Positions 8,045-26,845 of a stretch of DNA of 26,845 bases are shown in pieces. Each line of letters begins with the position of its first letter. Positions within the stretch are counted from its first letter, which is position 1. The notes below the pieces were generated by a model, which saw only the letters and a program-made list of their open reading frames with translations, was not told the DNA's origin and ran no database searches. The DNA lies in the IMG/VR virus record IMGVR_UViG_3300017765_000038, positions 1 to 26,845 of that record. One strand, given 5' to 3'. The stretch comes from a virus. The position numbers and the translations under genes are program-made.

Positions 8045-8069
8045 GGCGTAATACAATAGCCAACAGTAG

Positions 8070-8133: not shown

Positions 8134-8218
8134 GCGGCCAGTTCTCGCAATACACGGCCCTCATGGACAACCGTAAGCGATGTGAAACCTTGTTTTTATT
8201 TTTCTAAGGAGAAAGCAA

Positions 8219-9064: not shown

Positions 9065-9076
9065 GGAGACTGAGAT

Positions 9077-9352
9077 ATGGCTTATTCAAAAACTGGTCTT
9101 CAGCCTATCGGTGGTCAAGGCAAAGCTGGAACTGCACCGCAAATGTGGTCTTACACTTCAGCGGATGCGATAGCTACAGTTAACACTGCTGGTTATTTCA
9201 ATGACGCCTCTGACCTTCTGAAGGTTGGCGACCTGATGTACATCCATGATTCAAACACACCAACTGGCTCTTTGGTCATTGTGTTGAGCAATGCCTCAGG
9301 TGTTGTGGACGTTTCTGACGGTATAACTATCGCTGTTACAGATAGCGACTAA
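9077..9352 (+). CDS. Probable capsid decoration / head protein
   Basis: 91 residues, AAGGAG ribosome site, 12 bases after the capsid gene. It is a small beta-rich protein: MAYSKTGLQPIGGQGKAG, then QMWSYTSADAIATVNTAGYF, then a barrel-like SDLLKVGDLMYIHDS and repeated Val/Ile strands. The same kind of short protein, with a VNTAGYF and LLKVGD pattern, accompanies the capsid gene in many marine phages. Position and size suggest a decoration or head-stabilising protein; this is inferred, not shown. Confidence 0.65.
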   Translation: MAYSKTGLQPIGGQGKAGTAPQMWSYTSADAIATVNTAGYFNDASDLLKVGDLMYIHDSNTPTGSLVIVLSNASGVVDVSDGITIAVTDSD

Positions 9353-9363
9353 CTTCCTCCCCT

Positions 9364-9390
9364 GGGGCGGGTTTTATCATTTTCCCGCCC
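9364..9390. terminator. GC-rich hairpin after the head genes (weak terminator candidate)
   Basis: GGGCGGG at 9365-9371 pairs with CCCGCCC at 9384-9390 around a 12-base AT-rich loop. There is no T-run after the stem on either strand, so it may only pause transcription or protect the 3' end of capsid mRNA. It lies in the short gap between the decoration and tubular A genes, a place where T7 also has its main terminator. Confidence 0.45.
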
Positions 9391-9411
9391 TAGCCAACTA
9401 AGGAGAGTGGC

Positions 9412-10029
9412 ATGGCCTCAGGTGATACCAAACTGTCTATATGCTCAGACGCTTTGATAATGCTTGGAGCCGCGCCGCTTTCTTCTTTTTCAGAGGGCAC
9501 AGATAGCGCACAAATTACGGACCGCCTCTATGACGACATCCGCGACAGTACGCTTGGGATGCACCCCTGGACATTCTCATTCAAAAAGACCCAGCTATCC
9601 AGGACAACTAGCACTCCTGTCAACGAGTTCCTGTACGAATACCAGTTGCCAGGTGACAGGCTGAACAATGTCAGGGCTGTGTTTGTCAGCGGCACATCTG
9701 GCGCAAAGCCCATACGTTATGGCTGGGAAATAATGGGTGACAAGCTGCTATCCTCAGAAGAGAAAATATTTGTGGACTATCAGTTCCCTACGCCAGAAGG
9801 TGAAATGCCCACATACTTTGTGCAACTTTTAAAATATATGATGGCCTGGAATATCGCAGAAACTGTGACTGACCAGATAACCAAAGCAGATTATTTTAGA
9901 GGGATTGCTATGGGTACACCCTCCGAGAATATGCGTGGCGGCTTTTTCCGCGTTGCGACATCCATAGACAGCCAGAACCGACAGACAGAGGCGATTGAAG
10001 ACTTCAGTCTGATTTCGGTGCGTGGATGA
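9412..10029 (+). CDS. Tail tubular protein A (T7 gp11-like adaptor)
   Basis: 205 residues, near the 196 of T7 gp11. The start SICSDALIMLGAAPLSSFSEG, then QITDRLYDDIRDSTLGMHPWTFSFKK, the LPGDRLNNVRAVF strand block and the helical end with LLKYMMAWNIAETVTDQ are typical of the tubular A family. It forms the ring that joins the portal to the tail nozzle and closes the head after packaging. AAGGAG ribosome site; its stop overlaps the next start (ATGA). Confidence 0.88.
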   Translation: MASGDTKLSICSDALIMLGAAPLSSFSEGTDSAQITDRLYDDIRDSTLGMHPWTFSFKKTQLSRTTSTPVNEFLYEYQLPGDRLNNVRAVFVSGTSGAKPIRYGWEIMGDKLLSSEEKIFVDYQFPTPEGEMPTYFVQLLKYMMAWNIAETVTDQITKADYFRGIAMGTPSENMRGGFFRVATSIDSQNRQTEAIEDFSLISVRG

Positions 10030-11999: not shown

Positions 12000-12000
12000 C

Positions 12001-12450
12001 ATGGAAGCAATAGGCGCAATCAACATGGGCAAAGCCCAACAGGATATGTACAATGCTCAGGCAAAGCAAGCAGAGATGCAAGCCAGGAACCAGGTCCTAC
12101 AGAACCGCGCTGAAGTCCTAAACCACAAGCGGCAGGGAATTGAGGTTCTCAAAAAGATTTCACAAAATTTGTCATCTATTAATGCCAGAGCCGCTGCTGG
12201 TTCAATAGACCCCTTCTCTGGGTCTGTCCAGAATCTAGCCATTTACAACTTGGGCAAAGGCGCAACTGATTTTTATACGTCCCGTGAAAACCAAATGATT
12301 GGTCAGGCTCAGTCAAGCATCATAGAGGCTGGTGGCTCAATGCAGTCAGCGCAATACCTTATGGCTGGTAAATTAGCCAGGCAACAGGGGTACATCAACG
12401 CTATTGGCATTATGAGTGACAGGGCAATACAAGCTGCGGGGCTGATGTAA
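12001..12450 (+). CDS. Internal virion protein (T7 gp14-like)
   Basis: 149 residues from the ATG at 12001; a GTG at 11986 would add five residues but overlaps the nozzle gene. The N-terminal half is a Gln/Ala/Arg-rich helix (AQQDMYNAQAKQAEMQARNQ), then INARAAAGSIDPFSGSVQNL, a motif seen in gp14-type core proteins, and a second helical half rich in Ala, Gly and Gln with mild hydrophobicity. In T7 the equivalent leaves the head during infection and forms a pore in the outer membrane. The stop overlaps the next start (TAATG). Confidence 0.78.
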   Translation: MEAIGAINMGKAQQDMYNAQAKQAEMQARNQVLQNRAEVLNHKRQGIEVLKKISQNLSSINARAAAGSIDPFSGSVQNLAIYNLGKGATDFYTSRENQMIGQAQSSIIEAGGSMQSAQYLMAGKLARQQGYINAIGIMSDRAIQAAGLM

Positions 12451-15062
12451 TGAGTGAGTTGTTTGAAAGATTAGCAAGTCAGCCGATACGTTCTGTCGGT
12501 CCGGCAAATATCCGAAATATAGATTTTGCTGCTGGCCGCGAGGCGGTTCGTACTTCTGAGGCTCTAGTAAGAGCAATGGACCGCATTACTAATTTCGCAT
12601 TTGAAAAGGCAAAAGAAACCCAAATTACAGAAGGACAGCAACAGGGAGCAGCCGACCCCAGGAGAGCCCTGGCTGAGTTAGAGGACAAAGACCCTTCTAG
12701 CTTTAACTTCAGAGACCAAGCAGCGTTTGGCACAGCAGTAAAGGCCCTCACAGCAGAGGTTGAGGTCGAAGCTAAGAAAGCTATGGGCCTGGAGATGCTA
12801 GAGTCACAGAAGCTGGGCGAAACACCAGAGCAACTAGCAGAGCGTCTGGATATGGTGACGCTTGGCTATGCTGATGCTTTGGCCCTGATGGACCCTGCAT
12901 CTGCCAAGTCACTGAGCCTTAACTTAGAGAACTACAGGAACTCTCAGTATCTAAACTTCTCTGAAGACCACATCAAGAAGCAGAAGCAGACAACCAGGGC
13001 TCAAGGCGCAATTAAGTTAGACATGATGAATGAAAGTCTGGAGAACTTAGCCAGGTCTCAGATAGCTGGTGTTGATGAGTTGATTGAAGAAACTCTAAAT
13101 AGTCATGATGCTTTTCTTGCTGGGCAAGGCTTCAGCGCAGAGGAGATAGCCAGGGAAAGGATTGCCTCAAAGAAAAAAGCTGTCATAGCCAGGTCACGCG
13201 GAGAGTTTGACCGACTAACTTCGGTTGAGGAAAGGCTAAACTATGCAGAGGCTTTTGAGGAGTCTATTGGTAAGGACGGTGGTCTGGCTCGTGGTATGTC
13301 AGATGCAACCGCTCAGGCTTTAGCCAAGCAGTTTGGCACTATGGCAAAAGCGGATAAGGCTGCACTGAACTCAGAAATAGCAGTCCTAGGCGCAGATATT
13401 AAATTGGATGTTTCTAGTGTTGTGACGGCTGGCGGTGTGCCAGGCGATGGCGTTGTCAAAAAACTCAGAGCCCGTGTCAATGCACTAGAAGAGCAAGGCG
13501 GAAACAAAGAAAAGATTGCCGCTCTAAAAGACAGACTGGCCAGGGCTGAGGGAAACATTGAGTATTTCAAGGGCATCCAGGGCTATAACATTGAACAGCT
13601 TGCGGCTGAAAAGACCAGGCTAGAAGGCGTCAAAGATACAGCCGCAACGCCGGATGACATACTGCGCTTGAAAGTTGTTAAGTCCCGTCTGTCTCCTATG
13701 CTGGCAGAGGCAACGGCACAGAACGCCACCTGGAAGACTGCGGCCACGGCTGTTGGCAAAGGCGTTGACGCCCTTGAGAAGGTCGTCAAGCGGTTCGACC
13801 CCATAAGAGATGAGGACCTAGAAGCAGTAAACAACTCCATCAATGATATGGAAGAAGCTGGCGCACCGCCTGAGATGATTCAAGCTCTGCGCCAGGATGT
13901 GGCCAGGCTCAAGGGGATGTCTGAGTTTTTCAATGATATTGCTGATGATAGTAGCATGACCCTGGAAGATAAGATTGCAGCCCTGGGGCAGAAAGCACAG
14001 GAAGGCGGTCTGTCAACAGATGAGAGCGAAATCCTGGACGCGATGGACAAGCGGCTCACTGCTATGAGAACCGCCCTCAAGAGCGACCCAATGTCCTGGG
14101 CTAATGGCGCGGGTGTTGTAAGTCTGGAAGTAAATGTTGTTGAGACAATCCTGGCAGGGTCTGACCAGGACGCGATAGAAGCGTCTGTTGCCATGAGAGT
14201 CAATCACGCCAACAAGGTCGCGGGTCATTACCAGATACCGCGCAAAATCCTTACACAATCTGAGGCAACTAGCCTGGCTACTGCTTTGGAAGAGGCACCG
14301 ATTGAAGCACAAGCCGGATTGCTCAAAAGAGTCGTGGATGGCTTTGGCGCAAACGCCCTGGATGCTTTGAGCCAAATATCAAAGGACGCACCAGAACTAG
14401 CGCACATCGGCGGCTTGATGGCCTCAGGTGCGTCAGACGATATTATCAATGCTGCGATGATGGGCAAGGTTATCAAGGCTGGCAAAGAAGACAGAGCCCT
14501 GGGCGAGATGACAGACCAGCGCGATATGCGGATGGTGATGCTAGAGGGATTAGGTCAAACAGAGGGCATGGTCAAAACTGTAGACCGTCTCAAGTCAGTT
14601 GCAGACCTCATCTATCTGGGCCGTGGCGGCAGTACGGGCGCAACCTTTAACCGCAACTTATATGAACAGGCACTGCAAGAGGCGGCTGGTCAGCGCATGG
14701 TCGGGGGTGAGGCTTACGGCGGAATCACAGAGTATAGACCGACTATGAAGGCGGGGCGAAACATTATATTGCCAAGCAACATCCGCACTGATGGCGGCGT
14801 TGATGAAGTATTTGACAACATGACTAGCATAGATGATTTAGTTTCATTAGCTGTTACCCAGGATGATAATGGCAACCTGGTAAACTACGACCAGGCTCCT
14901 ATCGGCGTGGCTAACCAGGTGCAAGTGCCTTTGAGCGTAGTGCAAAAGTCAGACCTTATTTCTGTCGGCGATGGTCTTTATAAGTTGGCTTTTGAGGGCA
15001 ACGTCCTATTTGCGCCAAACAACCAGCCTTATCTCATCGACCTCAAGAAGGTCAACCAATGA
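12450..15062 (+). CDS. Internal virion protein (T7 gp15-like core protein)
   Basis: 870 residues (T7 gp15 has 747). The start (RLASQPIRSVGPANIRNIDF, then a long Ala/Glu-rich helical run) fits gp15-type internal core proteins. Nearly the whole chain is predicted helical with many Ala, Glu, Lys and Leu; no transmembrane segment or enzyme motif is visible. The C-terminal 100 residues are more globular (GVANQVQVPLSVVQKS and VLFAPNNQPYLIDLKK). By analogy it would form part of the conduit spanning the periplasm during DNA entry. It overlaps its neighbours by 1 and 4 bases, so the four core genes are one translational unit. Confidence 0.75.
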   Translation: MSELFERLASQPIRSVGPANIRNIDFAAGREAVRTSEALVRAMDRITNFAFEKAKETQITEGQQQGAADPRRALAELEDKDPSSFNFRDQAAFGTAVKALTAEVEVEAKKAMGLEMLESQKLGETPEQLAERLDMVTLGYADALALMDPASAKSLSLNLENYRNSQYLNFSEDHIKKQKQTTRAQGAIKLDMMNESLENLARSQIAGVDELIEETLNSHDAFLAGQGFSAEEIARERIASKKKAVIARSRGEFDRLTSVEERLNYAEAFEESIGKDGGLARGMSDATAQALAKQFGTMAKADKAALNSEIAVLGADIKLDVSSVVTAGGVPGDGVVKKLRARVNALEEQGGNKEKIAALKDRLARAEGNIEYFKGIQGYNIEQLAAEKTRLEGVKDTAATPDDILRLKVVKSRLSPMLAEATAQNATWKTAATAVGKGVDALEKVVKRFDPIRDEDLEAVNNSINDMEEAGAPPEMIQALRQDVARLKGMSEFFNDIADDSSMTLEDKIAALGQKAQEGGLSTDESEILDAMDKRLTAMRTALKSDPMSWANGAGVVSLEVNVVETILAGSDQDAIEASVAMRVNHANKVAGHYQIPRKILTQSEATSLATALEEAPIEAQAGLLKRVVDGFGANALDALSQISKDAPELAHIGGLMASGASDDIINAAMMGKVIKAGKEDRALGEMTDQRDMRMVMLEGLGQTEGMVKTVDRLKSVADLIYLGRGGSTGATFNRNLYEQALQEAAGQRMVGGEAYGGITEYRPTMKAGRNIILPSNIRTDGGVDEVFDNMTSIDDLVSLAVTQDDNGNLVNYDQAPIGVANQVQVPLSVVQKSDLISVGDGLYKLAFEGNVLFAPNNQPYLIDLKKVNQ

Positions 15063-17203
15063 GTATTTTCTATGAGCAATACTACAACACTGGCATAGGT
15101 GACACGCCCTTTGCTTATGGCGGTGAAGAGGTTGGTTTTGCTGATGCTCTCAGTCAGGCCTATGATAGTCAGATACGGGGCTCTAATATAGACACCTATG
15201 TCGAGTTGATGACTGACGAATTGCAGCCGCTGATTGACGCTATCAAGGAGCGTGAGGACCAGACCTTCATCAACCCAGGTCATTACTTTGGCGCATCAGA
15301 CAGCCAGGGTCACAACGATGGGATGCGTGAATATCGCCTGGGTCAGTTGTTTGACCACCTCAACGCCAACCGTGAACTATACCCAGAGTTTCAAGACCTA
15401 ACCCGCGAAAGTCTGCATGAACGCATTACATCAACGGCACTGGAAGCAATAGAGACAGGTCGGGAGTCTGCTGAAAGAGAAACAACACTTGGCTCTGTTG
15501 GTGGGTTCATTGGCACTGCTGGCGGCATTTTCGCTGATGACGCCTTCATGGAGCAGCTTTTCATGATGGGCCCTGCTGCCTTCACCAGGTCATCTGCAAC
15601 GCTGGGGCAGACCATGATAAGAGAGGCTATCATTGGCGGGGGCATGGAAGCGCAGCTACAAGCGGGAGTGATGGATTGGTATAACTCCCTGGGCCTGGAC
15701 TACGGCTATGACCAGTTTCTCACAAATGTTGCGGCTGGCCTGGTTATCGGGGCCGCGTTGCCGCCTGTGTTAAAGGGTGGGTCAACGGCTGTTAATTTAA
15801 CTTTTGACCAGGCAAGGCGCGGTTTCGAGGCGTTCAAGGGCACAAACATCAAGCCAAGGGATGCTGACCTGGCTATGGACCAGATTGACGACCTTGAGGC
15901 GTTGAACAGTCCTGACGCTCCAGATGTATTTGCGGCACCTGAGGGTGCTGATGCAAACATCAACGCCCTGATAGACGGGCTCAACAGAAACGCTGATGAT
16001 GCAGAACTAGCGTCTAATCCGGCTGTCGTTAAGGTCCAGGCTGATATGGAGGCTATACCTGAGACAGCGAAAGAGAACGACTATGGGTCTGTTGATTGGG
16101 ACCTAAACAGAACCTTCAACGACCCTGTTACAGGCGACACCTTTACAGGTTATGAAACAGCCTTGCAGAAGCTATACGATGGGGCAAAAACGCTTGCCTG
16201 GACAGACTCAAAACTGGCAGTGCCAGATGTGCCAAACAAATTTGAAAAACGTGCAATTATCGTTTTAGGACCACCAGCATCAGGTAAATCGTCAATAGCT
16301 AACCCAATAGCGAGACAGCATGGGGCAGCAATCATTGACCCTGATGAAGCTAAGAAGCTGTTTCCAGAGTTTCATAAGGGTGTTGGTGCAAACGCTGTGC
16401 ATGAGGAAAGCAAGTTTATGTCTGAGGTTCTTCAAGCCAAAGCTTTGGAAGAAGGCCTCAACATAGTCGTCCCTACCGTTGGCGGCAAAGCAGACAAGAT
16501 AAGAAACCTAATTCAGAAGTTTAAGGACAACGGTTATAGTGTTGACCTGTCTGTTGTGAACGTAAATTATACAAACTCTAGAAACAGAATGTTTATGCGG
16601 TTCGTAGAGAAAGGCCGCTACATTCCCTTAGATTACATTCAAAGCATTGGCAACAACCCTCTAGAGGTGTACAATACTTTGAGGAGAGAAGGAGTAGCAG
16701 ATGGCTACACGCAAATCGACAACAACGGAAGGGTCAACGAGCCCAAGCCCGTCATCGAAGACACCAGGGGACTCCTCGAAGGCGTTGAGTTACGATTACG
16801 AAGCGGCGGACGAGAGGGTGGAGACATACCTGGGGACGCCCCAGGGACAAGAGCGGATGAAGCGACTACTCGCGACTCTGAAGAGTTCATAGGCCGCTTA
16901 AATAAGGCTGATGACGCCTTCGCTAACTTAGAACGTGGAAACCTACCAGACGACCCCATAGGGTCCACTCAGACACGCCCTGCGCCCCAGGAAACATCTA
17001 TCCAGGCTAGAGATGTGGACGATGCTGTTGAGCAAGTGTCCAGAGATACTGACTTTGACAATATGCCAGACGATGAGGTCCTTATTCTGGATGAGGTCAT
17101 TGACGACCAGGTTGTGGCCAAAAGTTTCACTGGCAAAGAAATCAAAGCAGAACTAGCCCAGGACCAGCAGATGCTAGATAGACTGAGAGGGTGCGTAGTA
17201 TGA
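15059..17203 (+). CDS. Internal virion protein with embedded zeta-toxin-like kinase domain
   Basis: 714 residues. Residues 1-240 look like the N-terminal part of a gp16-type ejected core protein, with glycine-rich hydrophobic stretches near 140-240. Residues about 395-570 form a P-loop kinase: Walker A GPPASGKS at 404-411, an AAIIDPDEAKKLFPEF block (423-438) that parallels the catalytic Asp region of zeta toxins, HEES at 448-451, an EEGLNIVVPTVGG strand, a GYSVDLSVVNV strand, an Arg lid EKGRYIP and a closing TQIDNNGR. Zeta toxins phosphorylate UDP-N-acetylglucosamine; the acid usual after the NLVI strand is Pro here, so activity is uncertain. The end, QMLDRLRGCVV, is core-protein-like. Codon use is AT-richer in the kinase part. 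Confidence 0.8.
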   Translation: MSIFYEQYYNTGIGDTPFAYGGEEVGFADALSQAYDSQIRGSNIDTYVELMTDELQPLIDAIKEREDQTFINPGHYFGASDSQGHNDGMREYRLGQLFDHLNANRELYPEFQDLTRESLHERITSTALEAIETGRESAERETTLGSVGGFIGTAGGIFADDAFMEQLFMMGPAAFTRSSATLGQTMIREAIIGGGMEAQLQAGVMDWYNSLGLDYGYDQFLTNVAAGLVIGAALPPVLKGGSTAVNLTFDQARRGFEAFKGTNIKPRDADLAMDQIDDLEALNSPDAPDVFAAPEGADANINALIDGLNRNADDAELASNPAVVKVQADMEAIPETAKENDYGSVDWDLNRTFNDPVTGDTFTGYETALQKLYDGAKTLAWTDSKLAVPDVPNKFEKRAIIVLGPPASGKSSIANPIARQHGAAIIDPDEAKKLFPEFHKGVGANAVHEESKFMSEVLQAKALEEGLNIVVPTVGGKADKIRNLIQKFKDNGYSVDLSVVNVNYTNSRNRMFMRFVEKGRYIPLDYIQSIGNNPLEVYNTLRREGVADGYTQIDNNGRVNEPKPVIEDTRGLLEGVELRLRSGGREGGDIPGDAPGTRADEATTRDSEEFIGRLNKADDAFANLERGNLPDDPIGSTQTRPAPQETSIQARDVDDAVEQVSRDTDFDNMPDDEVLILDEVIDDQVVAKSFTGKEIKAELAQDQQMLDRLRGCVV
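16701..16892 (+). CDS. Out-of-frame nested small ORF at the end of the zeta domain
   Basis: 63 residues in another frame inside the zeta-containing gene. The ATG at 16701 has a strong GAAGGAG site seven bases upstream. The first 28 residues are Ser/Thr/Pro-rich; the rest reads like a natural amphipathic helix (SYDYEAADERVETYLGTPQG, then ERMKRLLATLKSS). In the main frame the same bases give a Gly/Arg/Asp-rich, low-complexity linker. It might be an overprinted gene, a remnant of a separate gene that followed a free-standing zeta gene, or even an antitoxin. Chance is also possible. Confidence 0.3.
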   Translation: MATRKSTTTEGSTSPSPSSKTPGDSSKALSYDYEAADERVETYLGTPQGQERMKRLLATLKSS

Positions 17204-19686
17204 GCCTTTTAGATTGTATCTCTAATGCAGAAAAAGAGGGGCCAGCTAATGGCGGCTTGACCAAAGAGCAAGCCAAGAAAGCAAGGCAACTTTTTATTGA
17301 TTTTAAAGTTCACAACGAAGCCAACATGAAAATGAGCCCCGCTGATGCTGATGCAAAGGCTGGTCAAGATACCTTTGATGTCCTGGAGTATGAGGCTTTC
17401 CAGAAAAAGCGGCGGATGATACTGCAACGGGCCACACTTACCAGGGCACTCAAAAACCTAGAGTCATACAAAGGACCTAACAAGGGTGAGGCTATGATTG
17501 CCTTCCTAGAGCGCGATGGCAAGGGCTTGAGCCCCTACTCTAACGTCACAGGCAGACAGGCTGTTGTTCGGGGCATGGCACATTCTCTTATGTCTGATGT
17601 CATCAACGGCTTACGCAAAACTCAGGTGACTGGCCGGACAACCAGGAAAGCTAAGGCAAAGTCTGAAGCTATGGTGCGAGAAGTGTTTGGCGAAAACACA
17701 GGAGACCAGGCAGCAAGAGAACTGGCTCAAGCCTGGGAAAAAGCCGCAGAGTTTCTCAGACTGTCATTTAACAAGGCTGGCGGTGACATCCCAAAGCGAC
17801 AGGGTGGGTATATGCCCCAGGTGCATGACAACGCAGCTATACGCAAAGCTGGCCTTGATACCTGGAAATCTTTTATCAGGCCTTTGTTAGATGAAGAGAA
17901 CATGGTCAGCTTTAAGACAGGCAAACCTATGACTATAGTCGAGTTTGAAGAGGCTCTTGATGAAGTGTGGGAAACCATTGCGACTGAAGGCTTCAGCAAG
18001 ATAAAGCAGACCTCTGTCGGGGGGCAAGGCAAGTCACTAGCAAGGAGACGCCAGGACCATAGATTTCTAAAGTTTAAGGACGCAGACTCATTCATGAAAT
18101 ACAATGCTGAGTTTGGGTCAGGCGATGTGTTCACAACTATGATGAACCACATTGATGGGATGTCCAGGGATGTGGCGTTGCTAGAAATCCTGGGTCCTAA
18201 TCCGAACTCGACTATCCGCTTTTTAAGGACTCAGGTCACAAAACAAGCCAAAGAGATTGACGCCAAGAACAACAACAGCAAGGCGTCATCTAAGTTGCAG
18301 GGTGCGTTTGATAAGTTCGATGATATGTTTGACTACATCTCTGGCAAGGCGCACACCCCTTCAAATGAAGCTGTAGCCAGGACATTCGCTGGTCTAGGCA
18401 ATCTTCTCACTGCGGCTTACCTGGGCTCGACATCTATCCTGGCCATAGCAACAGACCCGAACTTTACCAGGATTGCGAAGCGAATGGCGGGAATGCCTGT
18501 CTGGAAATCCTCTATGAAGAAGTCGTTTGCTATGATGACGGCGAACAAAACCACTAAGCAGCAAGCTATTCGCATGGGCCTCATTGCAGAGAACTGGTCT
18601 GCTGTGGCGTATGGCCAGGCCAGGTATGCTGGTGAGATTATGGGCGGCAGGGTATCTGAGGCAATAGCTACAACAGCTATGAACCTATCCCTCCTCTCCC
18701 CATTTACCCAGGCAGGGCGTTGGGCCTTTGGCATGGAGTTTATGGGGTTCATCGCTGATAACGCAGCAAAGCCCTACTCAGCCTTAAACCAGCCATTCAA
18801 GGAGACCCTAGAGCGTTTTGGTATATCTGAGGCTGATTGGGGTAAAATGGCCAGCTTTGAGCAATACGATTTTAAAGGCTCAAAGTTTCTAAGGCCAGAT
18901 GAGATGATGGAAACAGACAGAGACCTGGCATTTAAGACACTGGAGATGATACAGGGCATGACCAACCTGGCCGTCCCCGTGTCGTCTGTAAGGGCCAGGT
19001 CTACATTAGTGAGCAACACCAGGGCTGGGACATTAGCTGGCGAACTGGTCAGGTCGTTTGCTATGTTTAAGAACTTTCCCGTCACCTTTTATCAGAACAA
19101 TATGATGGCAGCTATATACCAGAAAGGCACTGGCCGGAAGCTGGCTATCGCGTCTGACTTGTTTATAACGTCCTCTGCTATGGCTGCTTTGTCTATTCAA
19201 ATGCGAGAGTTTACAAAGGGGCGAGATACTTTGCCTATGGACACGCCGCAGTTCTGGGGCAGTGCAATCCTGACAGGCGGCGGCTTTGGTATTTTTGGTG
19301 ATTTCCTATTTGCTGGGGTCAATCGCTTTGGCAAAGGCCTCACAGAAACAGCCGCAGGGCCAAGGACCAGTTTCCTCAACGATTTAAGAAACCTCACCCT
19401 GGGCAACGTGGCGCAGCTAATTGGCGGAGAGGACACAAACTTTGCTCGTGAGACTGTAGACTTCTTTGGCCGTAACTTACCTGGTGCATCAACCTGGTAT
19501 CTGCGCCTGGCTATAGAGCGGGGTGTCATGGACCAGTTACGCCTGGTAACAGACCCAAAGGCTTACAAAAGGTTTAGGCAATTAGAGAGGGGCCGCATCC
19601 GCGATTATGACCAGGAGTATTGGTGGCGTCCAGGTCAACTACTTCCTGACCGCGCCCCTAACGTCCTGGGTGTAACAGGAAGGTAA
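17200..19686 (+). CDS. Internal virion protein (T7 gp16 C-terminal-like)
   Basis: 828 residues from the ATG at 17200 (ATGA overlap); a GTG at 17191 is three codons upstream. Features in order: an N-terminal helical half with LSPYSNVTGRQAVVRGMAHS and KRQGGYMPQVHDNAAIRKAG, a middle with a glycine-rich amphipathic helix FAGLGNLLTAAYLGSTSILA near residues 390-415, several more mildly hydrophobic helices (AIATTAMNLSLLSPFTQAG; FGIFGDFLFAGVNRFG), and the terminal WWRPGQLLPDRAPNVLG that is common at the end of podovirus core proteins. It probably forms the inner-membrane channel for DNA entry. No transglycosylase motif is seen here or in the preceding gene. Confidence 0.75.
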   Translation: MSLLDCISNAEKEGPANGGLTKEQAKKARQLFIDFKVHNEANMKMSPADADAKAGQDTFDVLEYEAFQKKRRMILQRATLTRALKNLESYKGPNKGEAMIAFLERDGKGLSPYSNVTGRQAVVRGMAHSLMSDVINGLRKTQVTGRTTRKAKAKSEAMVREVFGENTGDQAARELAQAWEKAAEFLRLSFNKAGGDIPKRQGGYMPQVHDNAAIRKAGLDTWKSFIRPLLDEENMVSFKTGKPMTIVEFEEALDEVWETIATEGFSKIKQTSVGGQGKSLARRRQDHRFLKFKDADSFMKYNAEFGSGDVFTTMMNHIDGMSRDVALLEILGPNPNSTIRFLRTQVTKQAKEIDAKNNNSKASSKLQGAFDKFDDMFDYISGKAHTPSNEAVARTFAGLGNLLTAAYLGSTSILAIATDPNFTRIAKRMAGMPVWKSSMKKSFAMMTANKTTKQQAIRMGLIAENWSAVAYGQARYAGEIMGGRVSEAIATTAMNLSLLSPFTQAGRWAFGMEFMGFIADNAAKPYSALNQPFKETLERFGISEADWGKMASFEQYDFKGSKFLRPDEMMETDRDLAFKTLEMIQGMTNLAVPVSSVRARSTLVSNTRAGTLAGELVRSFAMFKNFPVTFYQNNMMAAIYQKGTGRKLAIASDLFITSSAMAALSIQMREFTKGRDTLPMDTPQFWGSAILTGGGFGIFGDFLFAGVNRFGKGLTETAAGPRTSFLNDLRNLTLGNVAQLIGGEDTNFARETVDFFGRNLPGASTWYLRLAIERGVMDQLRLVTDPKAYKRFRQLERGRIRDYDQEYWWRPGQLLPDRAPNVLGVTGR

Positions 19687-19691
19687 GGTAA

Positions 19692-19748
19692 ATGGATTTT
19701 TTTAGGCCTATATGCTACAACAACCAAAGGTCCCGTGAGGTATTGTAA
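19692..19748 (+). CDS. Possible 18-codon mini-ORF before the tail fibre gene
   Basis: ATG at 19692 with AAGG just upstream; the peptide is MDFFRPICYNNQRSREVL and its TAA shares a base with the fibre ATG (TAATG at 19746-19750). It fills the 61-base gap completely, which could mean translational coupling. The fibre gene also has its own GAGG site, so coupling is not required. Confidence 0.3.
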   Translation: MDFFRPICYNNQRSREVL

Positions 19749-21496
19749 TGACTGATTATAACATCAATGCTGTTAAAAGAAGAACAGTTCAGAGCGGAAG
19801 TGCGGGTCTGGGCCCGTATAACTTTACCTTTGAGATACTGTCTCAGACCGACATTGCGGTTCATTTGAACTCAACGCTTCTTACCCTTACGTCTGACTAT
19901 ACTGTTTCCATCAACTCAAATGTCACTGGCTCTGTAACTATCGTAACAGGGACAAATGTATCATCTACGCCACAAGCATCAGATGACATTACAATCATCG
20001 GGGCCAGGGACATTGAGCGCACAACTGATTTTGTTACGGCGGGTGACTTAACAGCGTCATCACTTAACGAACAGTTGGACAGTCTTACAATCTTTGACCA
20101 GCAAATATCTGAGCGAGTGGACCGCGCCCTCATAGGCAGCATCTCTGACCCGACCACCCTTGATATGACATTACCGACTGTTGATAACAGAAAAGGTAAA
20201 TACCTGGCTTTTAACTCAACGAGCGGCGCACCAGAGGCAGGGCCGTCAACATCAGACGTAAACACTCTCGCTTCAGTGACAAGTGATATTGCGACCCTGG
20301 CCGACATACAAGATGGGACAACAGCAACAAATGCCATCACAACGGTTGCTGGAATTCATGCTAATGTTACTACTGTGGCTGGCATTTCAAGTAACGTCAC
20401 CACTGTAGCTGGCAATACATCTAATATAAGTACTGTTGTATCAAACATAAGTGCTATTCAAGGTGCGGCAACCAATGCAACCAATGCCGCTAACTCAGCT
20501 ACAGCTGCGGCTGCAAGTGCGGCGGCGGCAGCAGCAAGCGAAGATAGTTTTTCAGACACATATTTAGGCGCAAAGTCTAGTGAGCCGTCAACAGACAATG
20601 ACGGTGATGCACTAAACGCTGGTGACTTGTTCTTTGATACAACAGCTAACACAATAAAGGTTTATACTGGTTCTGCTTGGCAAGTAGTATCACAGGCATC
20701 ATTAACATCTATTGCATCTGACACATCTCCTCAGCTTGGCGGCGACTTGGACATGGTGACATTTGATATTGTTACAACAAGTAACCGTGACATTGAGTTA
20801 AATCCAAATGGAACTGGTAAAACAGTTCTAAAAGGCAACACCAATCCAGGCACTTTAGTATTTAACTGTGAATCTAATACGCATGGACAGACTGTTAAGT
20901 CACAACCACACTCTGCTTCAGTAACAAATACACTGACGCTTCCTGCTGGTGGCGACCAAGAGATTGTTGGTGCTAGTGCTACGCAAACTCTTACTAACAA
21001 AACAATAGGTGTAGGCCAGCTATCAGGCCAAGTGGCTATAGCAAATGGTGGCACTGGTGCGGCTTCAGCATCAGCGGCTAGAACAGCATTAGGACTTGCA
21101 ATAGGTTCTGATGTGCAAGCGCATGATGCTGACACAGTAAAGAAAGATGTGAACAATACCTTTACTGCGGCACAGCGTGGTAGCACAGACACAGACACCA
21201 GCAACACTGGTTCTGTTACTTTGAACTTTGACACCAACCAGAACTTTGTGTTGACGCTAACAGGTGCTGTAACACTGGCTAATCCAAGCACTGAATCTGT
21301 AGGGCAAAGCGGCTTTATTGTATTTATACAGGATGGCACAGGCGGCAGAACTGTTAGTCTTGGCACAGACTACGAGACTGCTGGGGGTGCTGGCCTTACA
21401 CTATCTACAGCCGCAAGCACGACAGACATTGTACCTTATATTGTAGCAGCATCAGGCCGCATCTTATTAGGTGCGCCACAACTGGCGTTTGCATAA
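19748..21496 (+). CDS. Tail fibre protein (T7 gp17 N-terminal type)
   Basis: 582 residues. Residues 1-150 are the T7 gp17-type attachment domain (NINAVKRRTVQSGSAGLGPY, ITIIGARDIERTTDFV, SLNEQLDSLTIFDQQISERVDR). Then come decapeptide repeats TTVAGIxxNV at 198-237, an Ala-rich helix near 240-265, a phage carbohydrate-binding-like block LNAGDLFFDTTANTIKVYTG, a LPAGGDQEIVGASATQTLTN segment with GGTGAASASAARTALGL, and a C-terminal beta domain ending SGRILLGAPQLAFA. The N-terminal part docks on the nozzle; the distal part projects outwards. From about 20300 the DNA loses the CCWGG abundance seen upstream, which suggests the shaft and tip were exchanged. Confidence 0.88.
   Translation: MTDYNINAVKRRTVQSGSAGLGPYNFTFEILSQTDIAVHLNSTLLTLTSDYTVSINSNVTGSVTIVTGTNVSSTPQASDDITIIGARDIERTTDFVTAGDLTASSLNEQLDSLTIFDQQISERVDRALIGSISDPTTLDMTLPTVDNRKGKYLAFNSTSGAPEAGPSTSDVNTLASVTSDIATLADIQDGTTATNAITTVAGIHANVTTVAGISSNVTTVAGNTSNISTVVSNISAIQGAATNATNAANSATAAAASAAAAAASEDSFSDTYLGAKSSEPSTDNDGDALNAGDLFFDTTANTIKVYTGSAWQVVSQASLTSIASDTSPQLGGDLDMVTFDIVTTSNRDIELNPNGTGKTVLKGNTNPGTLVFNCESNTHGQTVKSQPHSASVTNTLTLPAGGDQEIVGASATQTLTNKTIGVGQLSGQVAIANGGTGAASASAARTALGLAIGSDVQAHDADTVKKDVNNTFTAAQRGSTDTDTSNTGSVTLNFDTNQNFVLTLTGAVTLANPSTESVGQSGFIVFIQDGTGGRTVSLGTDYETAGGAGLTLSTAASTTDIVPYIVAASGRILLGAPQLAFA
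20339..20458 (+). repeat. 30-bp tandem repeats in the tail fibre gene
   Basis: Three 30-base units (20339-20368, 20369-20398, 20399-20428) encode TTVAGIHANV, TTVAGISSNV and TTVAGNTSNI, with a degenerate fourth (STVVSNISAI). The DNA differs at many third positions while the protein is kept, so the repeat is under protein selection. It is probably a trimeric coiled-coil shaft element. Copy number of such repeats changes easily and sets fibre length. Confidence 0.75.
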
Positions 21497-23970
21497 TGAC
21501 TGCTCTTGATTCCTCACAATGGATGTACGCATCTGGTGGTTTCTATTCTCACACGATAGACCAATCCTTGCGTTTTGAAGATGGCGGCAGTCCTTCTTTG
21601 GAAAGAGACCAATCCAGCACAACCTCTTCAAGTGACAAAGCGTTTACTTTTTCTTGTTGGGTTAAGCGTGGAAATTTTGGTTCTTACCAAGCTCTCTTAG
21701 GCACAGAAGAAAGTGGCGACAGAGAATATTTTGGTTTTATGGATACAAATTATTTCATTTACCAATTTAACAACGGAACTAATTTAATTAGTAACCGTCT
21801 TTTTAGAGATTCTGCTTCTTGGTATCACATAGTTGTCGCTGTAAACATCAATGAAAGCACAGCGGCAGATAGACAAAAAATCTATGTAAACGGTTCTCAG
21901 CTAACCTCTTTTAGTTCAGCCAATTATTATGGTTCTAGCGATACTGTAAACTTTATGAAAAGTGGAATTGCAACAAGGGTTGGAGGTTTAAACAGTAGCA
22001 ATGCTATTCCCCTTGACGGTTATCTAGCAGAAGTGCATTTTGTGGATGGCTCTGCATTAGCACCAACCTCATTTGGCGAAACTAAAGCTGGCATCTGGAT
22101 CCCCAAGCAGTACTCAGGCTCCCACGGTAACAATGGTTTTTACCTGCCGTTTGATGATAGCGGTGCTATAGGCGATGACGAATCTGCAAACACAAACGAT
22201 TTTACAGTCAGCAACATTACGGCAACAGATGTAGTGCCTGATAGTCCTACGAATAACTTTGCTGTAATAGCAAATGATAAGGGCGGAACATCGCAAGATT
22301 ACACTGAAGGCAATCTACACGCTAACCAAGATGGTTCGGGTGCTGGTTCTTATGCGGCTAAATCAACAATGCTTGTGCCTATGAACTCTGGCAAATGGTA
22401 TTGTGAGGCACTATCAGATGCAAGTGGGGGATCTGGTGCAGGACTAGGTACATATACAGCCGATACAATCAATAGAGTTGGAACTGCTAGTTATTACTAT
22501 ACAGGCAATATTGTTGTAGCGAATGACGTTATTCATTACTATTCCAGCGGAGGTATATACCAAAATGGTCAACAACAAAGTGGTTTAGCAACCGTTGGTG
22601 ATAAAGACATTATTGGTATGCTTGTTGATACTGATGCAAAGACTGTGCAGTTTTATGTAAACGGTTCTGCGGCTGGCTCTGCAATAAGCATGAACAATAC
22701 AACAGACCCTGTTGGCGCACAGTTACATGGACATAATACCAGACCGTTCATGTTCAACTTTGGTCAAGGTTCTGATTTTGCTGACAGAAGCGCATCTGGT
22801 TCTGCAAACGCACAAGATGCCAATGGCATTGGTAATTTTTATTACACTCCACCTGCTGACGCAAAAGCGTTTTGCACAGCCAACCTACCCGACCCTGCCA
22901 TAGACCCTGCACAAGACGAAGAGCCAGCAGATTATTTCGATACTCAATTATGGACAGGCACGGGCAGTGGACAATCACTTAGCAATTTTTCATTTCAACC
23001 CGATTGGTTATGGTTTAAACATAGAAATGGTGGCTCTGACCATGCAATATTCGACTCAGTAAGAGGGGTCAACGCAGGGCTTTCATCAAATAACACTAAC
23101 GATGAAAATACAAGTGCTAGTGGCTCTCAAGATTTAGTAAGCTTTGATAATGATGGCTTTACCACAGGCACACCATCTCAATATGGTTCATTAGGAAGTA
23201 ATACAAATACTATTGTTACATGGGCTTGGAGAGGTGGCGGCTCTGCGTCTAGCAACTCAGCAGGTGACATAACATCGTCTGTATCTGCAAACACTGAGTC
23301 GGGGTTTAGTATAGTGGGTTACACAGGAGATGGAACATCTGCAACAAGAACTATTGGCTGTGGGTTAACAAAAAAACCAGAAGCAGTTATCTTAAAAAAT
23401 AGAACATCCGATAGTGTTACTGATACTTGGTTCGTTTGGCATACAGCATTTGGTACTGCTTCACCATCTAAATACATGACTTTGTACAACTCAGATGCTG
23501 TAGCGGCATCTGGTGTATTTGTAGATAGTTCATTTTCTGACAACAGCGGCAATGCGCTATTTGCAGTTGATGGCAGTTACAATGGTGTAAATAAATCAGG
23601 CACAACTTATATAGCTTACTGTTTTCACAGCGTTGAGGGCTACAGCAAGGTTGGCGGCTCATACACAGGCAATGGAAATGCTGATGGGCCGTTCATCTAC
23701 ACAGGGTTTAGGCCAGCGTGGGTTATGATAAAGCGTACTAATGGCTCAGGTAACTGGGTAATTCTTGACAATAAGCGTGAGGGATTTAACCCAGACCAAG
23801 ACGGTCTGGATGCAAACAGTGCTGGCGCAGAAGGTTCAGCTGAACAATCTGACTTTCTTTCTACTGGATTCAAAGTGCGTAACAATAGCACAGGAAACAA
23901 TGGCTCAGACAACACTTTTATATATCTTGCCTTTGCAGAACAACCCGCAAAATATTCTAATGCCCGATGA
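21496..23970 (+). CDS. Large lectin-like receptor-binding tail protein (LamG + SPRY-like + repeated DUF7483-like modules)
   Basis: 824 residues; the ATG overlaps the fibre stop. Residues about 15-200 form a concanavalin/LamG-like fold (AFTFSCWVKRGNF, SWYHIVVAVNI, KIYVNGSQLTSF, LDGYLAEVHFVDGSALAPTS). Residues about 230-440 look SPRY/B30.2-like (GKWYCEALSDASGG, TVQFYVNGSAAGS, FMFNFGQGSDF). The last 330 residues hold three related modules starting near 500 (FQPDWLWFKHRN), 626 (KKPEAVILKNRT) and 738 (FRPAWVMIKRTN), each with a strand-rich body and a YIAY/FIYLAF end, as in DUF7483 proteins. It is the best candidate for host-surface recognition. By eye it contains no CCWGG at all, unlike the phage backbone. 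Confidence 0.78.
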   Translation: MTALDSSQWMYASGGFYSHTIDQSLRFEDGGSPSLERDQSSTTSSSDKAFTFSCWVKRGNFGSYQALLGTEESGDREYFGFMDTNYFIYQFNNGTNLISNRLFRDSASWYHIVVAVNINESTAADRQKIYVNGSQLTSFSSANYYGSSDTVNFMKSGIATRVGGLNSSNAIPLDGYLAEVHFVDGSALAPTSFGETKAGIWIPKQYSGSHGNNGFYLPFDDSGAIGDDESANTNDFTVSNITATDVVPDSPTNNFAVIANDKGGTSQDYTEGNLHANQDGSGAGSYAAKSTMLVPMNSGKWYCEALSDASGGSGAGLGTYTADTINRVGTASYYYTGNIVVANDVIHYYSSGGIYQNGQQQSGLATVGDKDIIGMLVDTDAKTVQFYVNGSAAGSAISMNNTTDPVGAQLHGHNTRPFMFNFGQGSDFADRSASGSANAQDANGIGNFYYTPPADAKAFCTANLPDPAIDPAQDEEPADYFDTQLWTGTGSGQSLSNFSFQPDWLWFKHRNGGSDHAIFDSVRGVNAGLSSNNTNDENTSASGSQDLVSFDNDGFTTGTPSQYGSLGSNTNTIVTWAWRGGGSASSNSAGDITSSVSANTESGFSIVGYTGDGTSATRTIGCGLTKKPEAVILKNRTSDSVTDTWFVWHTAFGTASPSKYMTLYNSDAVAASGVFVDSSFSDNSGNALFAVDGSYNGVNKSGTTYIAYCFHSVEGYSKVGGSYTGNGNADGPFIYTGFRPAWVMIKRTNGSGNWVILDNKREGFNPDQDGLDANSAGAEGSAEQSDFLSTGFKVRNNSTGNNGSDNTFIYLAFAEQPAKYSNAR

Positions 23971-23982
23971 TAGGAGATAACA

Positions 23983-24537
23983 ATGCCTTGGAAATTAGGT
24001 AATAAAATAATCAGAGAAGGGCGTAGCTGGTCTGCCGATGGCATAACCCATCCTACCAACTGGGCTATCTGGTCAGATGCAGATAAGAAAGCATTAGGGC
24101 TAACATGGGAAGACCCACCGGCATCGTACGATAATCGTTTCTACTGGGATGCAAGCACACCAAAGGCATTGGATGATGTCAACGAAGTAGATAGTGATGG
24201 CAAGGCAATCATTAGCCCCATAACAAAAAAACAAATTGTAACGCTGGGCCTTAAAAGCCAGTGGAGGGCTATCATCAAGCAACAGGCGGCAGGGTTACTT
24301 GCCTCAACAGATTGGTACGTTACACGCAAAGCAGAGGACAGCACAGCAACAATACCGTCTGATGTGACAACATACAGGGCCGCTGTTCGCACCAAATCTG
24401 GGCAGATAGAAACATTGATAGCAGATGCGGCTGACCATGCGGCTTTTATGGCATTGTTTGATGTGCCGATGGATAATCAAAAACCACCACAGCCAACTGG
24501 CAACGCTCCAATTAATGATTGGCCTGATGAGTTATGA
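23983..24537 (+). CDS. Tail fibre assembly / chaperone-like protein (DUF4376-like)
   Basis: 184 residues with AGGAG upstream. The N-terminal half begins MPWKLGNKIIREGRSW and has THPTNWAIWSDADKKALGLT, typical of small proteins that follow marine phage fibre genes. The C-terminal half, LLASTDWYVTRKAEDSTATI then PSDVTTYRAAVRTKSGQIET, is the DUF4376/tail-assembly-type helical pair in which a TDWY motif precedes two helices. The end is Pro-rich. The role is inferred from position: folding or attaching the receptor-binding protein directly upstream. Confidence 0.65.
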   Translation: MPWKLGNKIIREGRSWSADGITHPTNWAIWSDADKKALGLTWEDPPASYDNRFYWDASTPKALDDVNEVDSDGKAIISPITKKQIVTLGLKSQWRAIIKQQAAGLLASTDWYVTRKAEDSTATIPSDVTTYRAAVRTKSGQIETLIADAADHAAFMALFDVPMDNQKPPQPTGNAPINDWPDEL

Positions 24538-24619
24538 ACTAGGTGAACCAGAATTTTTTTGCAGATAAATTACAAAGGCCAAAAGAATGAGATGGATATT
24601 GAAACTGTGGAGAGCGATT

Positions 24620-24730
24620 ATGCCGCACATCTATGACTTAAACCCAAAGCTGAAACCTAAGGCAACAAAGGATAAGGCCCCTGCCCCGAAAAAGCGTGGC
24701 CGTCCAAAAGGAAGCAAGGCTAAAAAATGA
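24620..24730 (+). CDS. AT-hook micro-protein
   Basis: 36 residues from the ATG at 24620 (GGAG at 24609-24612); an upstream in-frame ATG at 24587 would give 47. After MPHIYDLNPKLK the chain is Lys/Pro/Ala-rich and ends KKRGRPKGSKAKK, a textbook AT-hook core (RGRPKGS) that binds the minor groove of AT-rich DNA. The stop overlaps the next ATG (ATGA). Its place between fibre chaperone and lysis genes gives no further hint. It might condense DNA or modulate transcription. Confidence 0.6.
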   Translation: MPHIYDLNPKLKPKATKDKAPAPKKRGRPKGSKAKK

Positions 24731-24897
24731 GTAAGACTACTGCCGCATCTGTCAAAGCAGAACTAGACACGCTGACTGCATTGAGCCAGGAGCGTTTTAT
24801 TGAACTGCTCAGTCGGGTCAAAAGACTAGAGGCTGTGTTGGTCGGTTCGGCAGGGACAACGATTGTGTTGTTGCTTACCATGTTAGTGCGAGGCTGA
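24727..24897 (+). CDS. Small coiled-coil + C-terminal membrane segment protein (XhlA/holin-accessory-like)
   Basis: 56 residues. An N-terminal amphipathic helix (SVKAELDTLTALSQERFIEL, then LSRVKRLEAV) is followed by one membrane segment at about 36-54 (LVGSAGTTIVLLLTMLV). That layout recalls XhlA-type holin partners and other small phage lysis proteins. AAGG precedes the ATG by eight bases. It is too short for firm family assignment. Confidence 0.6.
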   Translation: MSKTTAASVKAELDTLTALSQERFIELLSRVKRLEAVLVGSAGTTIVLLLTMLVRG

Positions 24898-24900
24898 CCC

Positions 24901-25347
24901 ATGTTGGCGGAACTAGCGGCAGCAAATGCGGCTTTCGCTATCATCAAAAAAACCATCACCAACACTGGTGAGATTGCAAAGGCTGGCAAGGCCATCTCTG
25001 ATTTTGTGATAGCCAAAGAAGAACTCCAGCGCAAAGGGCAGAAGAAGAAAAAGTCAGGCGTAAGGACAAGTGACCTAGAGGAGTTTATGGCTCTAGAAGC
25101 GATTAGACAAAAAGAAGAAGAACTCAAGCAGTTCATGATTTACGCGGGTCGTCCTGGCTTATGGCATGACTGGCAGAAGCATCAGGCAGAAGCAAGGAAA
25201 GAGCGGCGTGTCCAAGAAGAACTCGCAAAAAGAAGAAGGGCGGAAATCCTTGACGCTCTGGGGCTGGGTGCTGTGGCTTTGTTTATATCTGCTTTGGTGG
25301 CTGGCCTTATAGCCTGGGTGGTGTGGCTCAAAGGAGGGTTCAAATGA
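24901..25347 (+). CDS. Coiled-coil phage protein with C-terminal membrane anchor
   Basis: 148 residues. The start MLAELAAANAAFAIIKKTIT and the block DLEEFMALEAIRQKEEELKQ followed by GRPGLWHDWQKHQAEARKER are shared with short proteins in the lysis region of many marine phages. Residues 35-118 are strongly charged and helical. The last 30 residues hold one membrane helix (about 119-143, GLGAVALFISALVAGLIAWV) and a short basic tail. A spanin- or holin-like role is possible from position; no lipobox or spanin partner is seen. Confidence 0.65.
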   Translation: MLAELAAANAAFAIIKKTITNTGEIAKAGKAISDFVIAKEELQRKGQKKKKSGVRTSDLEEFMALEAIRQKEEELKQFMIYAGRPGLWHDWQKHQAEARKERRVQEELAKRRRAEILDALGLGAVALFISALVAGLIAWVVWLKGGFK

Positions 25348-25556
25348 GTGACTGGTTCGACAAATATCTGAAGGTAAACATCACTGCAAAGCTGACAATG
25401 ATTGCGTCAGTGGCCATGTCCTGGAGATGTGCGGAGTGGTTTATGAATCTTGAAGAGCCCACAACACAGCAGTCCGCTTTTGTGAGCGTAATTATGGGGG
25501 TCATGACAGGTGTGTATGGCCTATATCTTGGGAAAGAAGCGAAAGGAAAAAGCTAA
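25344..25556 (+). CDS. Small two-helix membrane protein, holin candidate
   Basis: 70 residues from the ATG at 25344 (AAAGGAGG upstream; ATGA overlap). Two hydrophobic helices are visible: about 15-35 (AKLTMIASVAMSWRCAEWFM) and about 47-66 (SAFVSVIMGVMTGVYGLYLG), with a short charged N-terminus and a Lys-rich C-terminus, as in class II holins. It is the second putative holin in the cassette, besides the 3TM-type protein at 25705. Confidence 0.65.
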   Translation: MSDWFDKYLKVNITAKLTMIASVAMSWRCAEWFMNLEEPTTQQSAFVSVIMGVMTGVYGLYLGKEAKGKS

Positions 25557-25708
25557 TGCCTATGGGAAAAGGAACTTACGGTTCAAAGGTGGGCAGACCA
25601 CCAAAGAACAAGAAACTTGCAGCCATGTCTGGTGACAAAAACAAAATCACTCGTGGCGATATAATCATGGCGGCAAAGAAGAAGGCCATGAAAAAAGGCA
25701 AAGCATGA
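25556..25708 (+). CDS. 50-residue basic protein with GRPPK AT-hook-like motif
   Basis: The ATG shares a base with the previous TAA (TAATG) and the stop overlaps the next start (ATGA). The chain begins MPMGKGTYGSKVGRPPKNKK, in which GRPPK is an AT-hook-like core, then continues with KITRGDIIMAAKKKAMKK. Short MGKGTYGSKxGRP proteins are common in marine phages. It was too short to stand out by length alone but fits the gap exactly. Confidence 0.55.
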   Translation: MPMGKGTYGSKVGRPPKNKKLAAMSGDKNKITRGDIIMAAKKKAMKKGKA

Positions 25709-26088
25709 TTAATGCTCTTATTGGCCCTCTGGCATCCCTGGCAGGGTCTTTCCTGGAAGGCCAGGTATCAAAGCAAAAAGCCAAGGCCACTTTGGCACAG
25801 ACTGAGGCTGAGGCTAAGGCTGAGGTAATGAAGACTGCGGCACAGCATGATAGTAAGTGGGAACTCATCATGGCTGAGTCTACAAAATCCTCAATCAAGG
25901 ATGAGATAGTCACGATTGTTGTCTTGATTCCTGTGGTCCTGGTGTTCATCCCTGGCATGGAAGAGGTCGTGAAGAACGGCTTTGACCGCTTAAATGAATT
26001 GCCTGACTGGTATCAATACCTGGTTTTCCTGGTGTGCAGTGCGGCCCTGGGCATTAAAGGCCTGGATAAATTTAAGAGGCGCAAGTGA
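25705..26088 (+). CDS. Holin of the 3TM / GTA-release type
   Basis: 127 residues. An N-terminal weakly hydrophobic helix (INALIGPLASLAGSFLEG), an Ala/Lys/Glu-rich helix (20-60), then membrane segments at about 67-86 (EIVTIVVLIPVVLVFIPGM) and 102-119 (WYQYLVFLVCSAALGIKGL) and a basic end (DKFKRRK). This pattern, including the WYQYLVFL segment, matches the GTA_holin_3TM family (first known from the Rhodobacter gene transfer agent). It forms the inner-membrane hole that lets out the endolysin encoded next, with a 4-base overlap. Confidence 0.8.
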   Translation: MINALIGPLASLAGSFLEGQVSKQKAKATLAQTEAEAKAEVMKTAAQHDSKWELIMAESTKSSIKDEIVTIVVLIPVVLVFIPGMEEVVKNGFDRLNELPDWYQYLVFLVCSAALGIKGLDKFKRRK

Positions 26089-26615
26089 AACAAAACTTTG
26101 CACAGTGTCTGCGATGGTTGCTGCATCATGAGGGCGGGTTCGTTGACCATCCTGATGACCCTGGCGGGATGACAAACAAAGGCATCACTGCCAAAACCTA
26201 TCAGCGTTGGCTGTCGGAAACGATTGATGAGGACGCTGTTGTAACTGAAGAGACTTTGAGAAACATACCTGACAATCATGTGTCTCAAATATACCGCCAG
26301 GAATACTGGGTAAAAGTTTCTGGTGACAATCTCCCTGGTGGCCTGGACTGGAGCATTTTTGACTGGGCGGTCAACTCTGGTCCAGGTCGCTCCGCCAGAG
26401 CAATACAACGCATACTCAAGGTCAAAGCTGACGGAGACATAGGCCCAAAGACACTGGCCGCAATCAGAGAACATGACGCGGCCAGCTTGATAGATGATAT
26501 GTATTTTAGGCGACAGGCCTTTTATGAGCGGCTAAAGACCTTCCCCACATTTGGAGCGGGATGGACCCGCCGCAATGATGAGACTAGGGAGCAAGCGCAC
26601 CAGCTAGCACAGTAG
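26085..26615 (+). CDS. Endolysin, GH108 muramidase with peptidoglycan-binding domain
   Basis: 176 residues from a GTG at 26085. The catalytic start is LLHHEGGFVDHPDDPGG with Glu16 as the expected acid, followed by GMTNKGITAKTYQRW, as in GH108 (zliS-type) lysozymes. GLDWSIFDWAVNSGPGRSAR and ILKVKADGDIGPKTLAAI mark the border to the C-terminal predicted peptidoglycan-binding domain (PG_binding_3). No signal peptide is seen, so holin release is needed. The last 32 bases overlap the convergent LexA-like gene. Confidence 0.92.
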   Translation: MKQNFAQCLRWLLHHEGGFVDHPDDPGGMTNKGITAKTYQRWLSETIDEDAVVTEETLRNIPDNHVSQIYRQEYWVKVSGDNLPGGLDWSIFDWAVNSGPGRSARAIQRILKVKADGDIGPKTLAAIREHDAASLIDDMYFRRQAFYERLKTFPTFGAGWTRRNDETREQAHQLAQ

Positions 26616-26823: not shown

Positions 26824-26845
26824 GCGGTCATCCACTTCTGTGCAA

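Follow-up and report, generated by a model that had tools for sequence, protein, structure and literature searches.

Phages are already known to exchange their host-recognition modules, and two described systems come closest to the locus analysed here. In the Alteromonas phages A5, V22 and P24, a fibre gene and its cognate chaperone form a syntenic module that is found across tail morphologies and in unrelated genomes, implying horizontal transfer (PMC10579305). In so-called 'metaviromic islands', close marine phages vary in fibre C-termini, in lectin-like or carbohydrate-binding proteins and in fibre assembly proteins, and the fibres show a conserved N-terminus followed by repeats (PMC3909814). 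The stretch of DNA analysed here (the window, a virus record from IMG/VR that is 26,845 bp long) adds a clear example of this phenomenon. Sequence comparison indicates that the region at about 20.44-24.54 kb is very probably an imported host-recognition cassette, which replaced the genes of the phage's relatives through recombination with unrelated phages. The region has defined boundaries, a conserved gene order, foreign nearest relatives and a mosaic origin, and it lacks the CCWGG enrichment of the surrounding DNA.

By its gene content, the window belongs to an uncultured marine podovirus related to the cultured OM43 phage MEP301. The terminase, portal, capsid and tail tube genes are colinear with those of MEP301 (65% amino acid identity for terminase and capsid, 60% for portal and 51-55% for tail tube), and the virion gene order together with homologous portal, capsid and terminase places the phage in the MEP301-type group. 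At the DNA level, the left 20 kb of the window match nothing in phage records. The single pointer to the host of this phage and its contig relatives is the relationship to MEP301, which suggests OM43; a search of genome contigs for relatives of the portal, as a prophage route to the host, found none. One protein in the position of an internal virion protein (15059-17203) contains a kinase domain of the Zeta-toxin/AAA_33 type (Pfam PF06414, E=3e-22), which is unusual in a virion protein. The features of the window are as follows.

1..19686, + strand: left backbone, with replication initiator, terminase, portal, capsid, tail tube and internal virion proteins; CCWGG-enriched, without GATC and without CCSGG
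19748..20395, + strand: N-terminal 216 aa of the fibre, presumed virion-attachment part, backbone (62-82% aa identity in sisters)
20348..20436, + strand: left joint, three copies of a ~30-bp tandem repeat (found by TRF) that encodes a VTTVAGI-type linker
20464..20686, + strand: collar/shaft module common to the fibres of many phages (70-74% nt identity in L399, L202, L285, L286 and others)
20720..21496, + strand: foreign C-terminal half of the fibre, residues ~321-582 (nearest relative L370)
21496..23970, + strand: adhesin or putative receptor-binding protein of 824 aa, with Laminin_G_3, SPRY-like and DUF7483 domains
23983..24537, + strand: putative tail-fibre assembly chaperone of 184 aa (PHROG 4912)
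24544..24583, + strand: right joint, with the promoter-like element TTACAAAGGCCAA at 24570, where sister homology restarts
24588..24897, + strand: two small backbone genes (a basic 47-aa protein and a 56-aa membrane-type protein)
24901..26615, + strand: right backbone flank, with a phrog_32327 protein, a phrog_2524 protein and a GH108 endolysin (97-99% aa identity in G001)

Edges and joints of the island

The edges of the island are set by sister phages, whose backbone proteins are mostly 50-100% identical to those of the window. The closest sister, G001, has 97-98% identical backbone DNA from 1 to 15.9 kb, apart from a 150-bp interruption near 6.9 kb, and on the left it ends at window position 15.9 kb; it is similar again from 24,544 on (92%), and directly left of 24,544 it carries four unrelated genes, so that a near-identical backbone holds non-homologous genes at the same place. 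In G005, G002, G009, G006, G003 and L290, nearly all covered backbone proteins match, mostly at 50-92% amino acid identity, and the fibre N-terminus is 62-82% identical (57% over residues 5-165 in the isolate MEP301). Past this N-terminal part, sister matches to the fibre are at most weak or short: residues 321-450 find no sister match except at 33% in L290, and residues 451-582 none except at 62% in G008. The adhesin and the chaperone have no counterpart in these six relatives, and wherever the sisters are covered they match again right of the chaperone. Both joints lie on a single contig only in L290, where the flanks are 75-84% identical at the amino acid level. The early region of G001 (L190/L191) encodes a protein consisting of a LexA DNA-binding domain only, a serine resolvase N-domain protein and a weakly YqaJ-like protein.

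At the DNA level, similarity to G005, G002, G006, G009 and L290 breaks off within the fibre gene, at 20,319-20,436, and sister DNA matches the window once more from 24,544-24,554, in good agreement with the drops at about 20.3 and 24.6 kb that the first-pass annotation had predicted. That annotation had drawn the island itself from 20851 to 24785, on the basis of its missing CCWGG sites. Its placement of the left edge inside the fibre gene and of the right edge just after the chaperone stands, but by homology the true edges are at ~20.44 kb and ~24.54 kb, which moves them leftwards by about 0.4 kb and about 0.24 kb from 20,851 and 24,785, respectively. The CCAGG at 20846 is already inside the foreign part of the fibre, since similarity to L370 starts at 20,720, and CCWGG resumes at 24786, within the two small backbone genes. 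Two outcomes had been named that would speak against an exchanged cassette, namely equal sister identity across the island and a k-mer profile like that of the backbone; both analyses were run and neither outcome occurred.

At the left joint, the linker is 74-82% identical in nucleotide sequence in L364, L313, L290, L243 and L218 (65% in L366), as against 45-72% for the 300 bp that precede it and 42-51% for the DNA that follows. A short patch of homology serving in recombination would leave this pattern, although constraint on the protein that the repeat encodes may also explain it. The right joint is conserved in G001 (92%) and G002 (72%), with unrelated DNA upstream, and its element TTACAAAGGCCAA is found in L290 too. 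Other good copies of the element in the window lie at 1288 and 8052, both intergenic and on the + strand. More broadly, an intergenic + strand repeat, TTACAAWRGCCAA, occurs at 1288, 8052 and 24570, with a weak copy at 19716; it heads gene blocks that resemble transcription units, has copies at corresponding places in G001 and G002, and is a candidate phage promoter or regulatory site. As a marker of the phage group, the bare 14-mer of the right joint was rejected as not specific by itself, G001 and L040 being the group members recognised among the matches listed. RNA genes, tRNAs and Rfam elements are absent from both joints. The neighbouring small membrane-type gene (24727-24897) is 93% identical at the amino acid level in G002 and absent from the otherwise near-identical sister G001.

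Sources of the fibre tip, adhesin and chaperone

For fibre tip, adhesin and chaperone alike, the nearest relative lies on an unrelated backbone. Fibre residues 321-582 are closest to L370 (89/95% amino acid identity, and 81% nucleotide identity over 20720-21578), with L368 at 71/88%. L368 and L370 have different backbones, since such structural proteins as they have in common with the window are remote, at only 26-27% identity. The adhesin is 92% identical in nucleotide sequence to G012 over 21553-23327 (1,775 bp), a contig with no similarity to the window backbone and a tail protein 59% identical to that of the SAR116 phage HMO-2011. The chaperone is closest to L367 (93% amino acid identity, and 92% nucleotide identity over 23855-24531). 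Across G012, L370 and L367, virion genes show either no similarity or remote similarity only to those of the window. A possible second exchanged gene is the 99-aa gene upstream of the portal (5057-5356): it has 69-74% identity to L368-L370, and in these contigs the other virion genes that were matched are only remotely similar or are missing.

Homology also points to distal-fibre, receptor-binding and chaperone functions for the island genes. Pfam domains in the adhesin are Laminin_G_3 (residues 43-185) and DUF7483 (residues 476-817), and a profile search against the PDB together with fold comparison adds a SPRY-like domain at ~265-400 (AlphaFold model: pLDDT 79, pTM 0.82). From its lectin-like domains and its position we infer that the adhesin binds a receptor, the ligand being presumably a surface glycan or protein. 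Relatives of the adhesin appear in 71 phage records, most of them from phages of Pelagibacter, Synechococcus and Roseobacter. The chaperone assignment draws on its family, 27/30 homologues of which match PHROG 4912 'tail fiber assembly', and the gene lies directly 3' of the adhesin in nearly all contigs that have both; its model has no significant fold match in the PDB, and its sequence no convincing family in Pfam.

Dozens of contigs have their genes in the order fibre tip-adhesin-chaperone, as does, distantly, the isolate MEP301. It is also present in G013, whose translated ORFs include tape-measure-like and gpJ-like genes and appear siphovirus-like. No two of fibre tip, adhesin and chaperone share the same closest relative; the island is therefore a composite that draws on at least three sources, put together either in this phage or in an unsampled ancestor. 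The first-pass annotation had proposed a host-range cassette exchanged as a block. The exchange of a host-recognition cassette is borne out, with genes foreign to the sisters and nearest relatives on unrelated backbones, but 'block' is too simple a word when the closest relative differs from segment to segment. With such differing sources, a single block transfer is only a possibility, and the island was perhaps imported from an unsampled composite.

We propose that the conserved fibre N-terminus keeps the fibre anchored on the virion, and that all distal parts (the fibre C-terminus, the LamG/SPRY/DUF7483 adhesin and the fibre-assembly chaperone) would have been swapped when unrelated phages, infecting the same cells or an overlapping set of them, recombined with this one. 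The left joint may have formed by short-homology recombination at the tandem-repeat linker and the right joint by the same route at the intergenic promoter-like element, perhaps assisted by a YqaJ-type recombination nuclease. Relaxed recombination in this phage group is plausible: MEP301 carries genes for YqaJ and ERF, and a G001 protein resembles YqaJ, although its Pfam match (E=0.0012) does not reach the family cut-off. Such a swap would have changed receptor specificity and host range.

CCWGG enrichment of the backbone and its absence from the island

The island was first noticed by eye as a stretch free of CCWGG between 20846 and 24786, with about ten sites per kb elsewhere, and counting confirms this. 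The window holds 236 CCWGG sites, none of them in these 3,940 bp; the second-longest gap is 567 bp, and at a uniform rate of 10.3/kb, as found outside the gap, zero sites in 3,935 bp has P ~3e-18. The DNA is AT-richer as well, as claimed, with 43.9% GC at 20396-24540, compared with 50.5% in the left flank and 48.7% in the right one. A further claim, that the island's products are rich in Ser, Thr, Asn and Gly, applies to the fibre (42%) and the adhesin (41%) but not to the chaperone (23%, vs 24% in the backbone). As a general marker of imports, a drop in GC was rejected: the region after the linker is AT-richer in only 28/56 relatives.

We also computed expectations by permutation of synonymous codons, which preserves proteins and codon usage. 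The coding sequence of the backbone, which spans 1-20395 and 24541-26845, has 214 CCWGG sites where 64.6 (sd 6.3) are expected, a 3.3-fold enrichment. For the island, zero sites compares with 2.25 (sd 1.4) expected from its own codons (P=0.094) and 7.3 expected under backbone codon usage; with the 3.3-fold enrichment applied, these expectations rise to 7.4 (P ~6e-4 for zero) and 24 (P ~3e-11), respectively. The oddity is thus an enriched backbone: the island simply lacks that enrichment and is not significantly depleted for its own composition.

The enrichment is common to the sisters, with observed/expected counts of 256/71 in G001, 399/100 in G005 and 347/102 in G002, and their own variable regions have 1/2.8, 5/4.6 and 1/5.0. 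Each of the ten relatives with enriched backbones shows weaker enrichment past the linker than in its backbone (pooled observed/expected 0.94 vs 3.35); in lineages free of CCWGG, the cassettes are nearly site-free too. This family-wide pattern fits, without proving, enrichment that builds up slowly in resident DNA together with avoidance that acts fast on imports. We propose that the gap in the window would be a by-product of the exchange, with backbone enrichment slow to accumulate and the imported DNA too recent to have acquired it.

Within the portal family, the CCWGG observed/expected ratio can be as low as 0 or as high as 4.6, and high ratios occur at low and high GC alike. CTWGG/CCWAG is depleted (40 vs 73 expected), the direction predicted by very-short-patch repair, but GCAGG, CGAGG and other neighbours of CCWGG are depleted as well. 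Among the eight G001 proteins scanned against Pfam, none is a phage-encoded methyltransferase that might cause the enrichment. The backbone also lacks GATC (0 vs 73 expected), CCSGG (0 vs 25) and CGACG (0 vs 42), and has 2 AGCTC vs 45 expected. Scarcity of AGCTC is common to the sisters; that of GATC is not, being near normal in G002. The island has 2 GATC (8-13 expected); as a pointer to its donor, avoidance of this motif gives a mixed picture among the island's relatives, with none in G012 and G013 and many in L368-L370. We tentatively suggest, as one doubtful possibility, that an active process raises CCWGG in the backbones of these phages and that imports arrive without the enrichment, so that its level would date each import; the driver may be host m5C methylation together with very-short-patch repair, or selection for the motif as a methylated mark of self. 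If true, the CCWGG pattern would be a built-in clock for host switching.

Such a clock would fail if the enrichment is functional, or comes from a process that skips the fibre region, in which case a non-enriched island says nothing about import. The lower enrichment after the linker in 10/10 enriched relatives speaks for this explanation. However, enrichment spans all other parts of the window, including the small genes right of the joint, and we consider the explanation unlikely; since import is established separately by homology, it touches only the use of CCWGG as a clock. Slightly less likely still is that a CCWGG-specific restriction system in the host or the donor selected against sites in the island. 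CCWGG is wholly absent from some contigs that carry related cassettes (L204, L206, L367, L373 and L376), cassettes in CCWGG-free lineages are nearly site-free, and parts of the island may thus stem from lineages under such selection. On the other hand, the recipient has 235 CCWGG elsewhere, on which such a system cannot act unless the sites are protected; L370, the likely source of the fibre tip, has 10 vs 13.3 expected; and chance can account for the lack of sites in the island, given its own codons, a result by which we reject restriction-driven avoidance as the main cause of the gap. Finally, it is highly improbable that the region is native and old and looks foreign through fast distal-fibre evolution and AT-richer coding for Ser, Thr, Asn and Gly: the unremarkable zero and the 41-42% of these residues in fibre and adhesin would suit such a history, but fast evolution cannot yield an adhesin 92% DNA-identical to that of an HMO-2011-type phage or a chaperone 93% identical to that of L367, a sister whose backbone is 98% identical has neither gene beside its right flank, backbone enrichment acting on the island's codons would rarely leave it without sites, and island genes were found at high identity on unrelated backbones, the very outcome that contradicts this history.

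Comparison with known exchange systems

Read as an imported cassette, the island is a clearly bounded case in which relatives are identified for every imported piece, and in which a podovirus appears to have gained a complete host-recognition unit from other phage groups. Relatives of the adhesin span phages of SAR11, Roseobacter, OM43 and cyanobacterial lineages, and cassette sequence may therefore predict hosts better than backbone sequence. CCWGG enrichment, strong in the backbone and weaker or absent in the cassettes of all ten enriched relatives tested, offers a compositional marker for recent imports.

Like the module of Alteromonas phages A5, V22 and P24, the island joins a fibre to a chaperone in a unit common to unrelated genomes (PMC10579305). 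It differs in adding a LamG/SPRY/DUF7483 adhesin between the fibre tip and the chaperone, in a chaperone without a match to DUF4376, the family reported for A5 and V22 (PMC10579305), and in its recipient, a MEP301-related podovirus. HMO-2011-type phages, which include SAR116, Roseobacter and pelagiphages, are represented by G012, recognised by its HMO-2011-like tail protein; this contig has the 92% DNA-identical adhesin, but no backbone similarity and a different fibre gene of its own (54%, in residues 321-450 only). MEP301 (MW452941), by contrast, shares the virion gene order and the fibre N-terminus, and carries a distant copy of the cassette (39% for a fibre-tip piece, 36% for the adhesin and 36% for the chaperone) with extra genes between fibre and adhesin; the window cassette is far less identical to this copy than to cassettes on other backbones. 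The island resembles a metaviromic island in its overall plan, with a conserved fibre N-terminus, repeats, and variable distal fibre, lectin-like and assembly genes (PMC3909814). Metaviromic islands were defined by the recruitment of metavirome reads (PMC3909814), whereas the island described here is known from homology, from its joints and from a compositional marker.
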